A stretch of DNA of 43,730 nucleotides, from assembly GCA_030431485.1 (NCBI GenBank), contig JAUIIR010000032.1, forward strand, positions 1 to 43,730, read 5' to 3'. Origin of the DNA: Alphaproteobacteria bacterium. Its GTDB lineage: Bacteria > Pseudomonadota > Alphaproteobacteria > Rhodobacterales > Rhodobacteraceae. The notes beneath the pieces were generated by a model that ran no database searches, was not told where the DNA came from, and worked only from the letters and a program-made list of their open reading frames with translations. Of the stretch, positions 3,921 to 18,350 are shown in pieces. The position numbers were made by a program, and so were the translations under genes. How positions within the stretch are numbered: the stretch's first letter is position 1; each line of letters opens with the position of its first letter.

Positions 3921-5438
3921 TCAGAGGAAATCGTCGTTGCCCAGGTTGGCATCGCCAACGTTGAACAGCGTGATCGTGCCGTCGCCGCCAATCAGGCTTG
4001 CATCAATGACCGCCGAGGCGCCATTGAACGAAAGTGCACCAGCAGCTTCCAGATCGTCGCGCGAGTCGATGGCGGACCCGTTGAAGCTGTAGGCGCTCAG
4101 GTCGAGGAAATCGTCGCCGCTCTTGTCGAAACCGATGATGGTGGTGTCGCCGATGTCCCCCGAGAACACAAAGGTATCGTCGCCACCAAGGCCCCGGAAC
4201 TGCTCTTTGGCATCCGTCGCCGTAAAGGTCTGATCGGTTGAATTACCCGCGATGATTGTCGTCCCAGTTGGGTCCGACGGTGTAAAGACAGTCCGCTCAA
4301 CCGAGCCATTCTCGCTAAAGGTCTCGGTCGTGCCAATCGCCGCGACTTCCGTTTTCAGGAACTCGACACCGTTCACGAAAGCCCTTTCGATGGACTTGCC
4401 GTTGTCCAGCTGGTTGAACGTATAGTTCACCACACCATTCGTGTCGTAGGTCTCGAACAGGAATTCATAGATGAAAGCGCTGCCATCCGAGCTGGTGTCG
4501 AAGATGGTCTTGTTCACTTCATCTCCGGTGGCCGGATCGAACTCAACCGAGGTCTGCTGATCAGGAATATCCGTCGTTTCACGGATCTTCTGCAGCGAAT
4601 CGTTAAAGAACGTCTGGGTGGTCGTGGTGCCGTCGACCTCGGTCAGAATATAGGTCGTCTCGCCGTCGATCTCTTCGACCGTGAAGGTGATCGAGCTGTT
4701 GTTTTCCCCGGACCAGCGCACTTCGTCGACGTCGTCGTCCAGAAGCGTCTTGGCCTGGTTCAGGTCGGCAAGCCCCGAGGCAAACGACCAATTGGTAATT
4801 TCGACCGTCTCACCGGTTCCGGCAGATCCGATAATCCCGTTGTTCGCCAGAAAGGTGTTCAGCTGAGTGTCGGTAATCTTGAGGTCAACATCTGCCTTGA
4901 ACTGAACGCGTTCAACGCGTAACACAGTGGCCCCAGACAGATCCACTTCGGTTCCGGTGCCACCCGCGATCAAGCGCAGCGTGTCGACCCCGTTTGCGCC
5001 CTCGATGGTCTCGCCCGCTACAACATCACCTGCGGCCGCCAGGATAAGGTCGTTTCCCGCACCAGCGTTGATCGAATCGCGACCCGTTCCGCCATTCACA
5101 ACGTCGTTGCCGCCGCCCGAATTCAGAAAGTCATTGCCGGCGCCGCCGTTGACCGTGTCGGCACCACCCACGGAGTTGATGATATCGCGCCCCGCCAAAC
5201 CGCTGATGTTTTCAGCTGCCGAGCTGCCGGCGAAGCGGTCGACCTGGTTTGCAATGTCGGTCAGAACAAAGTTTGTCAGGTTCGTGTAGGTGTCGCCCTG
5301 GGCAAAGCCATTCAAACCGCCTTGAATGACGCGGACGATAACGCCGTCGGTTGTCCCCAGAACATTGTAGGTGACACCGTCGATGCCACCACCGGCGACG
5401 ATGATGTCAGGATTTGCAGTTGCCTGGAAATTGGCCAT
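3921..5438 (-). CDS. RTX-type calcium-binding secreted protein
   Basis: A 505-aa acidic protein starting MANFQATANPDII with no Sec signal, as expected for type I secretion. Residues about 80-135 carry glycine-aspartate nonapeptides (GGADTVNGGAGNDFLN, then GGTGRDSINAGAGNDLI), which form a Ca-binding beta-roll. A second RTX-like segment near residue 412 (FRGLGGDDTFVFSG) leads into a C-terminal beta domain ending GNDDFL, like the serralysin C-terminal secretion domain. The central part (about 150-400) is not recognised and shows no protease motif. GGGGAAT precedes the ATG. It lies between the polymerase and the wzc/wza genes, so a matrix-associated or surface protein is plausible. No dedicated type I transporter is seen in the window. 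Confidence 0.88.
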   Translation of the reverse strand: MANFQATANPDIIVAGGGIDGVTYNVLGTTDGVIVRVIQGGLNGFAQGDTYTNLTNFVLTDIANQVDRFAGSSAAENISGLAGRDIINSVGGADTVNGGAGNDFLNSGGGNDVVNGGTGRDSINAGAGNDLILAAAGDVVAGETIEGANGVDTLRLIAGGTGTEVDLSGATVLRVERVQFKADVDLKITDTQLNTFLANNGIIGSAGTGETVEITNWSFASGLADLNQAKTLLDDDVDEVRWSGENNSSITFTVEEIDGETTYILTEVDGTTTTQTFFNDSLQKIRETTDIPDQQTSVEFDPATGDEVNKTIFDTSSDGSAFIYEFLFETYDTNGVVNYTFNQLDNGKSIERAFVNGVEFLKTEVAAIGTTETFSENGSVERTVFTPSDPTGTTIIAGNSTDQTFTATDAKEQFRGLGGDDTFVFSGDIGDTTIIGFDKSGDDFLDLSAYSFNGSAIDSRDDLEAAGALSFNGASAVIDASLIGGDGTITLFNVGDANLGNDDFL

Positions 5439-17255: not shown

Positions 17256-17741
17256 CTACATGCACGACAAATCGTCGGAATTAAGATTTACCCGTATTTG
17301 AGTCCCAAGAATTTCAAAAATTGCCCAAACACGGCGTTCTGGCTCGATTTTATCGATGCTTCCGACCAATTCCGCAAATGGCCCCCGAATGACTCGAATT
17401 TCGTCACCTGGGTTCAGTTTCTTGAATGGCAAGAGGGTGCCTGTCTCATCACATCTGGCTTTGAGTTGAATAACCAGTTCCTCTGGAATTCGAGCTGGAG
17501 TAGTTCCAAAGGTAACCACACGAGAAATGCCACGTGTCGCGTTGATGGCGGATAGAGATTGTGTGTTGCTTGGTGAAACAAAAATGTAGCCGGGAAACAA
17601 AGGCCTCGTTTTGGAAACGAATTTTCCGCGGTATTGTGTCGTGTAATGCTCAGACGGAGTGAAAGTAAGAATGCCTTGGCGCGCCAGGTGCTCCCGCGCC
17701 AAACCTAAGCCATTGGGTTTGGTTTGAGCAAGAAACCACAT
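17256..17741 (-). CDS. RfaH/UpxY-like NusG paralogue (transcription antiterminator)
   Basis: 161 aa from ATG 17741 (WFLAQTKPNGLGLAREHLARQ). A frame from 17831 would add 30 residues, but the family usually begins at this WxL motif, and RfaH itself is 162 aa. The NGN domain has LFPGYIFVSP and RGISRVVTFGTTPARIPEELV. The C-terminal KOW region reads LNPGDEIRVIRGPFAELVGSI. Such specialised NusG proteins ride with RNA polymerase to prevent termination in long polysaccharide operons, usually recruited at an ops or leader element. It is divergent from the MarR gene that opens the 23-kb operon, with ops-like sequences between them. Start certainty is moderate. Confidence 0.85.
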   Translation of the reverse strand: MWFLAQTKPNGLGLAREHLARQGILTFTPSEHYTTQYRGKFVSKTRPLFPGYIFVSPSNTQSLSAINATRGISRVVTFGTTPARIPEELVIQLKARCDETGTLLPFKKLNPGDEIRVIRGPFAELVGSIDKIEPERRVWAIFEILGTQIRVNLNSDDLSCM

Positions 17742-17863
17742 GTCTACAAAGTCCCGGATGTCGCGCGTTAAGATTCGCAACCAAAGCTGGTCAAGAAACC
17801 GAAAGCATTGGTTTTTTAGGGTTTTATTCACGAAAAAGCTTTCGCCTAACTCCGCGTGATGAT

Positions 17864-17883
17864 ATCGCTCAAACTTGAGCGAT
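17864..17883. promoter_or_regulatory. 20-bp perfect palindrome between nusG-like and marR-like genes (candidate operator)
   Basis: ATCGCTCAA-AC-TTGAGCGAT: 9-bp arms with a 2-bp centre, about 90 bp upstream of the marR-type start. The size and symmetry are right for a dimeric winged-helix repressor such as the MarR protein encoded beside it. It could control both divergent transcripts. Confidence 0.55.
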
Positions 17884-17910
17884 GTCGAGTCTTTTGTCAG
17901 GATTTCTTCA

Positions 17911-17959
17911 GGCGGTAAGCGTGTTCGGACGGCGAGTCAGGACCGGTGCGGTAGCCGTG
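17911..17959 (+). promoter_or_regulatory. two ops-like elements in the leader of the EPS operon
   Basis: GGCGGTAAGCGTG (17911-17923) and GCGGTAGCCGTG (17948-17959) each differ from the E. coli ops element recognised by RfaH (GGCGGTAGCGTG) by one inserted base, apart from a missing first G in the second. They lie on the + strand just downstream of the palindrome and upstream of the marR-type gene, where a recruitment site would be expected. An RfaH-like gene is adjacent. Functional recognition in this organism is untested. Confidence 0.4.
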
Positions 17960-17975
17960 AGTTCAACGATTGAGA

Positions 17976-18350
17976 ATGACTGAACGCAAGCGTGACGCTC
18001 AAGAGGATCTACGCTATCGCGCGCTTCGGCTGCTGGAGGGCAACCCAGAGCTGTCGCAGTGGGATTTGGCAAAAGCCTTAGGGATTAGCGTCGGGGGTAC
18101 ATGGTATGTCATTAACGCTTTGGTTGAAAAAGGGCTTGTCAAGCTTGGAAATTTTCGGACCGCAAAGGACCGCCGACGCTATGCGTATATTCTGACGCCC
18201 AAAGGTGTGGCAGAGAAAGTTTCCATGACAGGGCGTTTCCTAGACCGGAAAAAAAGAGAATATGAAGCTTTGCGAAGAGAAATTGCGCTGTTGCAGCAAG
18301 AACTTTCCGACGAGGTTGAAAAAAGAGACTCTGAACAGATGCGGCGCTGA
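17976..18350 (+). CDS. MarR-family EPS-associated transcriptional regulator
   Basis: 124 aa from the ATG at 17976; a TTG at 17970 is an alternative. It has a winged helix (residues about 15-70): EGNPELSQWDLAKALGISVGG, recognition helix GTWYVINALVEKGLVKLGNF, then the wing RTAKDRRRYAYILTPKGVAEK. A C-terminal coiled coil (about 80-120, KKREYEALRREIALLQQEL) probably mediates dimerisation. This matches the small MarR-type subfamily that sits in exopolysaccharide loci. It is 23 bp upstream of gmd and so is the first gene of the long operon, suggesting autoregulation through the palindrome at 17864-17883. Confidence 0.87.
   Translation: MTERKRDAQEDLRYRALRLLEGNPELSQWDLAKALGISVGGTWYVINALVEKGLVKLGNFRTAKDRRRYAYILTPKGVAEKVSMTGRFLDRKKREYEALRREIALLQQELSDEVEKRDSEQMRR

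Follow-up and report, generated by a model that had tools for sequence, protein, structure and literature searches.

A NusG paralogue and a MarR_EPS regulator flank the leader of a 20-gene EPS operon

The window analyzed here is a whole contig (C123; 43,730 bases) from a 4.66-Mb genome. As it encodes a Rep3-type initiator and ParA/ParB-like proteins, the contig is probably a plasmid. Its minus strand (positions 17256-17741) encodes an RfaH-like NusG paralogue of 161 amino acids with NGN and KOW domains, identified by profile match, alignment and individual residues. On the plus strand, a MarR_EPS regulator (TIGR04176; positions 17976-18350; profile match) is the first gene of an operon that continues, as judged from gene order and partial family matches, with 20 EPS genes (positions 18374-41738, plus strand). 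All 20 genes run in the direction of marR; no gap exceeds 30 bp, and neighboring genes overlap at 11 of the 20 junctions, in agreement with the first-pass annotation of this DNA, which had described about 20 co-directional, overlapping genes after the regulator.

The operon contains gmd and genes for a WbuC-like cupin, an aminotransferase, several GT4-like glycosyltransferases, acetyltransferase-like and flippase-like proteins, a polymerase-like membrane protein, a GT2-like protein, an FkbM methyltransferase, a two-domain dehydrogenase, a heparinase II/III-like protein, a WcaI-like glycosyltransferase, a UDP-GlcNAc 2-epimerase-like protein and a UDP-ManNAc dehydrogenase-like protein. Among these names, those of gmd and FkbM alone passed an NCBIfam cut-off, and those of the heparinase and one glycosyltransferase domain a Pfam cut-off; the polymerase-like, 2-epimerase-like and UDP-ManNAc dehydrogenase-like genes were named by sequence reading without a family search, and the rest are below-cut-off resemblances. 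Elsewhere in the window, positions 3921-5438 (minus strand) encode a protein that, by sequence reading, has RTX-like GGxGxD repeats and adjoins export genes. The same genome has a second NusG paralogue/MarR_EPS pair on contig C31, and its housekeeping NusG is encoded on contig C21.

The gene pair is conserved in related genomes and on named plasmids

We searched 248 genomes of the same family for both genes. Frames of less than 250 aa scoring at least 123 bits were counted as standalone MarR_EPS, a definition that drops proteins of 690-797 aa, a 267-aa frame in genome G032 and a truncated copy in G093. NusG paralogues were defined by a TIGR01955 score of at least 80 bits, above a gap that separates them from the remaining proteins at 67 bits or less. 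This identified 41 standalone MarR_EPS genes in 35 genomes and 52 paralogues in 41 genomes. MarR_EPS occurs alone in 5 genomes and the paralogue alone in 11, while 202 have neither (Fisher's exact test, 2e-24, not corrected for kinship). The pair, whose absence from related loci the first-pass annotation had named as evidence against its proposal, is conserved, with both members present in 30 of the 248 genomes.

Where MarR_EPS genes share a contig with a paralogue (30 genes), 22 are divergent from it, 6 co-directional and 2 convergent, at distances from 0.2 kb to more than 30 kb and, once, 1.1 Mb. A search of other Roseobacter plasmids had also been proposed, and the pair does recur on named plasmids: in pSpoCB-4 of Sulfitobacter sp. 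CB2047, an RfaH-like gene (minus strand), a MarR_EPS gene (plus strand) and then a long EPS cluster stand in the same order as in the window. With this recurrence and the second pair on contig C31, the pair is not confined to the plasmid for which it had been described.

A MarR_EPS-like winged-helix domain is also found N-terminal to a PUA-ATP sulfurylase-APS kinase protein (L306:1330-3402, genome G230), which was examined with Pfam; about 50 further MarR_EPS matches lie in frames of 690-797 aa, judged by frame length alone. Such a fusion of a regulator domain to a sulfate-activating enzyme may point to a link with sulfated EPS.

The paralogue keeps ops-contacting residues and lacks the autoinhibitory glutamate of RfaH

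Both domains of the paralogue score above their cut-offs (NGN: PF02357, 52.3 bits against 22.2; KOW: 25.1 bits against 22.3), so the earlier description of an RfaH-sized, minus-strand protein with NGN and KOW domains was correct. Its start is likely the ATG at position 17741, which gives 161 aa, and not the GTG at 17831; alignment with this protein covers E. coli RfaH residues 4-154. It is, like RfaH, an NGN-KOW protein distinct from the housekeeping NusG. With the RfaH equivalog model TIGR01955 it scores 104.2 bits, below the cut-off of 144.5, a value reached in none of the 248 family genomes.

In the structure of E. coli RfaH bound to ops, side-chain contacts are made by K10, H20, R23 and R73, which read G5 and T6, and recruitment depends on bases 3-8 (PMC5995543, in excerpt). 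The window paralogue has all four contact residues (K, H, R and R) as well as Q24. We extended this comparison to the 66 paralogues paired with MarR_EPS loci, a set in which some genomes are entered twice, leaving a paralogue with an internal stop (G183 C15) out of the protein comparisons. Conservation is high for K10 (64 of 66), R23 (55), Q24 (63), T72 (65) and F56 (66); position 20 is N in 58 of 66, and R73 is kept in only 6, the window protein among them. The autoinhibitory residue E48 is replaced by R or K in 62 of the 66, and by R in the window.

AlphaFold2 predicts a β-structured CTD for the paralogue (CTD pLDDT ~72-75, falling to 59 at the end; pTM 0.63), a prediction that is compatible with a fold switch. 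With this model, the best Foldseek match was a NusG model and the second was recruited RfaH bound at ops. At the Rho-binding position the paralogue has ILG, against IFG in NusG and LIN in RfaH (NusG residues from the portion of PMC7593976 available). Given the below-cut-off score, the missing E48 and the predicted β CTD, we refer to the protein as having a putative RfaH-like function and do not class it as RfaH. RfaH proteins with a β CTD have been linked to ops independence (2026 preprint, PMC13015549, in part); this link may fail in Alphaproteobacteria, given the conserved ops leaders described below. Two IMG/VR contigs, L224 and L225, each encode a protein closely related to the paralogue (49% and 48%).

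An ops element occupies a regular place in the leader

As expected of an RfaH target, the leader contains an ops element: TGCGGTAGCCGTG at positions 17947-17959 (plus strand), in which GCGGTAGC corresponds to bases 2-9 of E. coli ops. Its identification rests on conservation. The core GCGG(T/C)AGC, which corresponds to the part of E. coli ops contacted by RfaH, is found before MarR_EPS at 37 of the 41 family loci, as GCGGTAGC in 30 and as GCGGCAGC in 7 (120 bp before the MarR_EPS domain); the loci without it are in genomes G056, G015, G085 and G091. Control windows drawn from these loci (n = 1722) contain the exact core in 0.4% of cases and any one-mismatch core in 5.2%. Since the window contains GCGGYAGC 5 times, with 5.0 occurrences expected, the significance of the element lies in its conservation at a fixed place and not in its presence. 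A genome-wide search with the short pattern was likewise at chance level (14 matches against 13 for the reversed pattern).

Named loci gave the same picture. Among the best 80 of 375 by similarity to the NusG paralogue, 41 have MarR_EPS, and the ops core is present at 41 of 41. Titles in this set include Rhodobacterales, Martelella, Rhizobiaceae, Minwuia, Kordiimonadales and Thalassospira. The set overlaps the family set (several genomes are identical), and 72 distinct leaders remained after duplicate removal. A T precedes the core in all 72, a column that lay outside the selection. T6, the flipped-out base of E. coli ops, is C in 11 of the 72, and no single residue change in the paralogue tracks these changes. 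The marR start follows ops at 28 nt in the window; for many relatives this distance is about 20-40 nt.

Two ops-like elements had been described between the genes. Both strings exist, and only the one at 17947-17959 is conserved: the second, GGCGGTAAGCGTG (positions 17911-17923, plus strand), carries an additional A, and in the listed relatives nothing corresponds to it at this place; we rejected it as a probably non-functional string.

After the ops core, the leaders follow one of two registers, CTG/TTG in the first and CGT/CAT/TAT in the second. The first register accompanies 29 of 35 paralogues with Y73, and the second accompanies each of the 6 with R73, a split that may reflect kinship. 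Near 27 NusG paralogues without a MarR_EPS neighbor there is mostly no leader-like ops; among these loci, G093 has a classic leader and G119 and G138 have possible ones.

A conserved palindrome is the predicted MarR_EPS operator

The plus-strand regulator scores 137.1 bits with TIGR04176 against a cut-off of 88, and between it and the paralogue gene lies the perfect palindrome CGCTCAAACTTGAGCG (positions 17866-17881), both as first annotated. It matches the consensus CGYTCA-N4-TGARCG and no other site in the window does so, even with one mismatch allowed; as shuffles give an expectation of 0.60 matches, the window palindrome by itself is not above chance. Across the 4.66-Mb genome, the exact consensus occurs at three places, namely the two MarR_EPS leaders and one site inside a coding frame, and the reversed-pattern control occurs at one. 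Among the 41 family loci, 32 have a palindrome that agrees with the consensus at 11 or all 12 positions, compared to 12 of 233 control windows. It usually lies 59-69 bp upstream of ops (36-53 bp in some loci). From this conservation, and from its retention at MarR_EPS loci without ops, we conclude that MarR_EPS most likely binds the palindrome. We found no functional study of the MarR_EPS family in the open-licence literature that we searched, and the palindrome is proposed here as its predicted operator.

A promoter-like stretch for marR and the EPS operon runs into the palindrome (positions 17840-17865, plus strand), with a -35-like TTTCGC at 17840-17845 and an extended -10-like TGATAT at 17860-17865, recognized by conservation and place. 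Among 61 distinct upstream regions, the positions before the palindrome are enriched for TT at -26/-25 (92% and 80%) and TA at -3/-2 (77% and 82%), columns that we read as putative -35 and extended -10 elements. Our consensus promoter scan began at position 17850, and this stretch is not among its sites; that scan gave 4 promoter-like sites in the region, where chance alone would give 3.3. Shine-Dalgarno strength before marR did not differ from that before the first ATG of long ORFs (p = 0.47), a comparison in which the start assignments are unsure.

It is from the position of the operator that we read repression as the likely action of MarR_EPS. An operator just after the promoter elements occupies the position usual for repressors. 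At several loci outside the class, such as L315-L317, the palindrome closely follows a TTGACA-like/TTGTAT-like pair (by eye). An alternative is that MarR_EPS is an activator or dual regulator that aids the promoter from the palindrome, with RfaH-like antitermination unchanged. A minus-strand promoter-like site for the paralogue gene (TCGACA-18-TATCAT, positions 17859-17888; a weak call from consensus match only) also spans the palindrome, and MarR could therefore affect both genes. Nevertheless, the repressor-type position at L315-L317 and similar loci, and the overlap of the window palindrome with the -10-like sequence and probable start, make activation unlikely, and we retain repression as the preferred reading.

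A hairpin directly precedes ops in most leaders

The region directly before ops (positions 17913-17945, plus strand) corresponds to a hairpin that covaries in relatives and is weak in the window itself (z = +0.26). A minimum-energy hairpin ending 0-2 nt before ops is predicted in 90% of 71 distinct leaders, and in 85% of 47 and 73% of 26 leaders at growing divergence, compared to 19% of 1625 control 38-mers. In the 26 diverse leaders, pairing of the hairpin arms within a leader exceeds pairing between leaders (p = 0.0015). The fold energy of the 38 nt before ops is mildly low relative to shuffles (mean z = -1.1 for 72 leaders and -0.8 for the 26 diverse ones).

We assessed covariation on a 50-leader alignment that was not fitted to the stem, using 500 shuffles; the stem was named from the same sequences. 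The stem covariation score was 0.285 versus 0.172, with 0 of 500 shuffles as high, and both the fraction of paired stem cells (68.8% versus 58.4%) and the number of double-change cells (42 versus 19.9) were above all 500 shuffles. Two of the five measures were not above the shuffles (double-change pairs, 6 versus 6.7; further pair types, 20 versus 19.6), and one slid control exceeds the stem in double-change cells (53 versus 42). RNAalifold on a plain MAFFT alignment gave no upstream stem, in our opinion because MAFFT misaligns the 5' arms.

The window leader scores 22.7 bits with a hairpin-ops covariance model, within the background range. When a leader model was searched against the 248 genomes, the first 23 matches were MarR_EPS leaders or remnants and the 24th, in G111, was the first of another kind; this search used strict filters, its training members match by construction, and below match 23 only G111 and contig C45 of the window's own genome were examined. 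With polymerase at ops U11, the hairpin would stand ~10-11 nt upstream of the RNA 3' end, the distance at which pause hairpins act.

Each DNA element largely follows its own protein

To the family loci we added 17 usable MarR_EPS loci from a 398-genome sample of the phylum. Outside the family, genomes without an RfaH-like paralogue have ops at 0 of 14 loci, and the palindrome matches at 11-12 of 12 positions in 12 of the 14 and at 10 in the other 2. G547, which has a paralogue in its genome, has both ops and palindrome; G337 and G368, from outside the class, have the paralogue and MarR_EPS without ops. The combined table of 58 loci leaves out G430, which is cut off at contig starts, and G496, whose match is short. 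In it, ops is present at 36 of 39 loci whose genomes encode a paralogue versus 2 of 19 loci in genomes where none was detected (Fisher's exact test, 8.5e-10, uncorrected for kinship). Of these 19 loci, 17 lack ops, and 15 of the 17 retain the palindrome.

Individual loci illustrate both the pattern and its exceptions. In the family, the loci of G056, G015 and G085 have no paralogue, no ops and a palindrome at 12 of 12 positions; as no NusG of any kind was found in G085 or G516, the absence of the paralogue is unsure in these two. G091 has a paralogue, a changed ops core and a palindrome not above background. In G037, which has a paralogue, hairpin and ops are kept before a flippase operon, most of marR is lost and the palindrome is at 8 of 12. 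On the other side, G009 and G202 have ops with no paralogue detected, and a second leader in G093 keeps both ops and palindrome before a truncated marR, which counts against a strict rule. In the plasmid set (13 of 20 MarR_EPS records examined, the other 7 taken as near copies), ops is present in 11 of 13 records, at least one of them from the same species as a family genome; the two without it are from Aliarcobacter and from a Sulfitobacter pontiacus plasmid. Paralogue matches were obtained in nine Sulfitobacter records, and this plasmid is not one of them.

In G037 (contig C109, L304:5967-6290), marR is reduced to its start; by eye, the remnant continues into a C-terminus resembling UDP-glucose dehydrogenase. 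An intact hairpin-ops leader precedes this remnant, and a cluster of flippase, sulfotransferase and methyltransferase genes follows it.

On a weakly supported tree of the 58 MarR_EPS proteins, ops changes 6 times and the paralogue 10 times. A strict independent-pairs test on this tree was underpowered, with a single pair on supported branches, so that co-loss is not significant by this test. As ops is mostly absent where the paralogue is undetected and the palindrome is mostly kept there, the palindrome goes with MarR and ops with the paralogue. We conclude that each DNA element largely follows its own protein, with a few exceptions.

This pattern bears on two further alternatives. The pair could be conserved merely because both genes travel with EPS clusters, with no joint control of a single leader: both families are EPS-associated by name and in earlier work (PMC7593976, in part), and the presence-absence statistics are not corrected for kinship. 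Co-travel predicts neither a regularly placed ops core nor its usual absence without the paralogue, and we regard it as quite improbable. The ops-like block could also serve translation initiation or MarR binding in the marR leader and be unrelated to RfaH recruitment, as its closeness to the marR start would allow. This is still less credible, given its identity to E. coli ops bases 2-9, its absence from nearly all loci without a detected paralogue while the palindrome is mostly kept, and its persistence in G037 after the loss of most of marR; binding of MarR at ops was rejected, as ops is nearly always absent where the paralogue is undetected. Two apparent docking sites, the presence of each tending to track that of its protein, instead point to a two-step switch.

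A two-layer model for control of the EPS operon

We consider it probable that the intergenic region acts as a leader with two layers of control over the EPS operon, combining a MarR gate with RfaH-type loading. Comparison among relatives establishes the conserved pair, both DNA elements, the hairpin and their regular spacing; from these we infer a promoter and start, repression, pausing, recruitment and antitermination. MarR_EPS would bind the palindrome, which overlaps the putative promoter and start, and would repress initiation, including that of its own gene. After its release, RNA polymerase would transcribe a leader of roughly 60-80 nt and may pause at the hairpin-plus-ops just before the marR start codon. 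There, the RfaH-like NusG paralogue would load via ops bases exposed on the non-template strand, and the loaded polymerase would resist Rho and polarity along the 23-kb operon, which would prevent premature termination. We reject the notion that the palindrome and its T-rich tail form an intrinsic terminator read through by the paralogue, the least credible alternative, as the 12-pair terminator-like call at 17860-17887 is matched by a chance-level frequency of such sites (13 against 13.7 expected), most of the relatives compared keep the palindrome with no T-run directly after it, and promoter-like sequence runs into it.

The two-layer model retains the core of the first-pass proposal, a MarR switch and an RfaH-type factor on one EPS leader: the pair is conserved and the elements track the proteins, and the regulatory action itself stays a model. 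More tentatively, and with rather less than even confidence, we suggest an alphaproteobacterial RfaH/ops branch in which ops is recognized without E48 autoinhibition by a protein with a NusG-like β CTD, and specificity comes from the hairpin before ops and the MarR gate. The hairpin of this branch would hold the paused polymerase or contact the factor, as the LoaP hairpin does. If true, ops contacts would be uncoupled from autoinhibition, two traits that the current evolutionary model joins in origin. The paralogue-leader pairs suggest that ops recognition extends beyond a single proteobacterial class without RfaH-style autoinhibition. How specialized NusG paralogues find their targets is largely open beyond E. 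coli RfaH and Bacillus LoaP; with dozens of paralogue-leader pairs and natural losses of either half, the recruitment code becomes testable in culturable strains. The MarR_EPS family, in turn, gains a predicted operator.

Comparison with known systems

The closest parallel is E. coli RfaH and ops. The window paralogue resembles RfaH in size, in its NGN and KOW domains and in base-contact residues K10/H20/R23/R73, and its target resembles ops in the GCGGTAGC block and in its place in the leader of a long polysaccharide operon. In contrast to RfaH, the paralogue is encoded beside its own target, has R or K at E48 in nearly all relatives, has a CTD predicted as β and scores below the TIGR01955 cut-off; in contrast to E. 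coli ops, T6 can be C.

The JUMPstart stem lies just before ops. As an ops-associated stem-loop has been reported upstream of genes in gammaproteobacterial polysaccharide operons (PMC2864571, in excerpt), a hairpin with ops is not a new idea. The present leaders differ in that their stem sequences are different, an operator palindrome is added upstream and the JUMPstart model RF01707 gave no match at any leader of the 8 genomes searched, with E-values as high as 10 admitted. UpxY of Bacteroides and LoaP of Bacillus are likewise NusG paralogues tied to polysaccharide or other long operons, and LoaP uses a leader RNA hairpin (PMC12691694, in part). The window paralogue differs from both in falling below their cut-offs (UpxY, NF033644: 79.9 against 100 bits; LoaP, NF033641: 53 against 125 bits), and a UNCG tetraloop forms in 0 of 72 predicted leader folds, though 26 leaders contain the string.

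Among RfaH-like proteins, cluster CL4 of Wang et al. (2020) is linked to an HTH regulator and envelope genes, and recruitment is described there as known in detail for E. coli RfaH only (PMC7593976, both from the portion available). The present paralogues share the HTH-regulator and envelope-gene association, a likeness that does not imply CL4 identity. The earlier statement that the two-layer control matches no described alphaproteobacterial system holds insofar as we found no description of such control in Alphaproteobacteria in the open-licence literature searched, and is narrowed by the CL4-HTH association already published in that work. The novel part is the putative MarR gate that is added here to control of the RfaH/ops/JUMPstart type.
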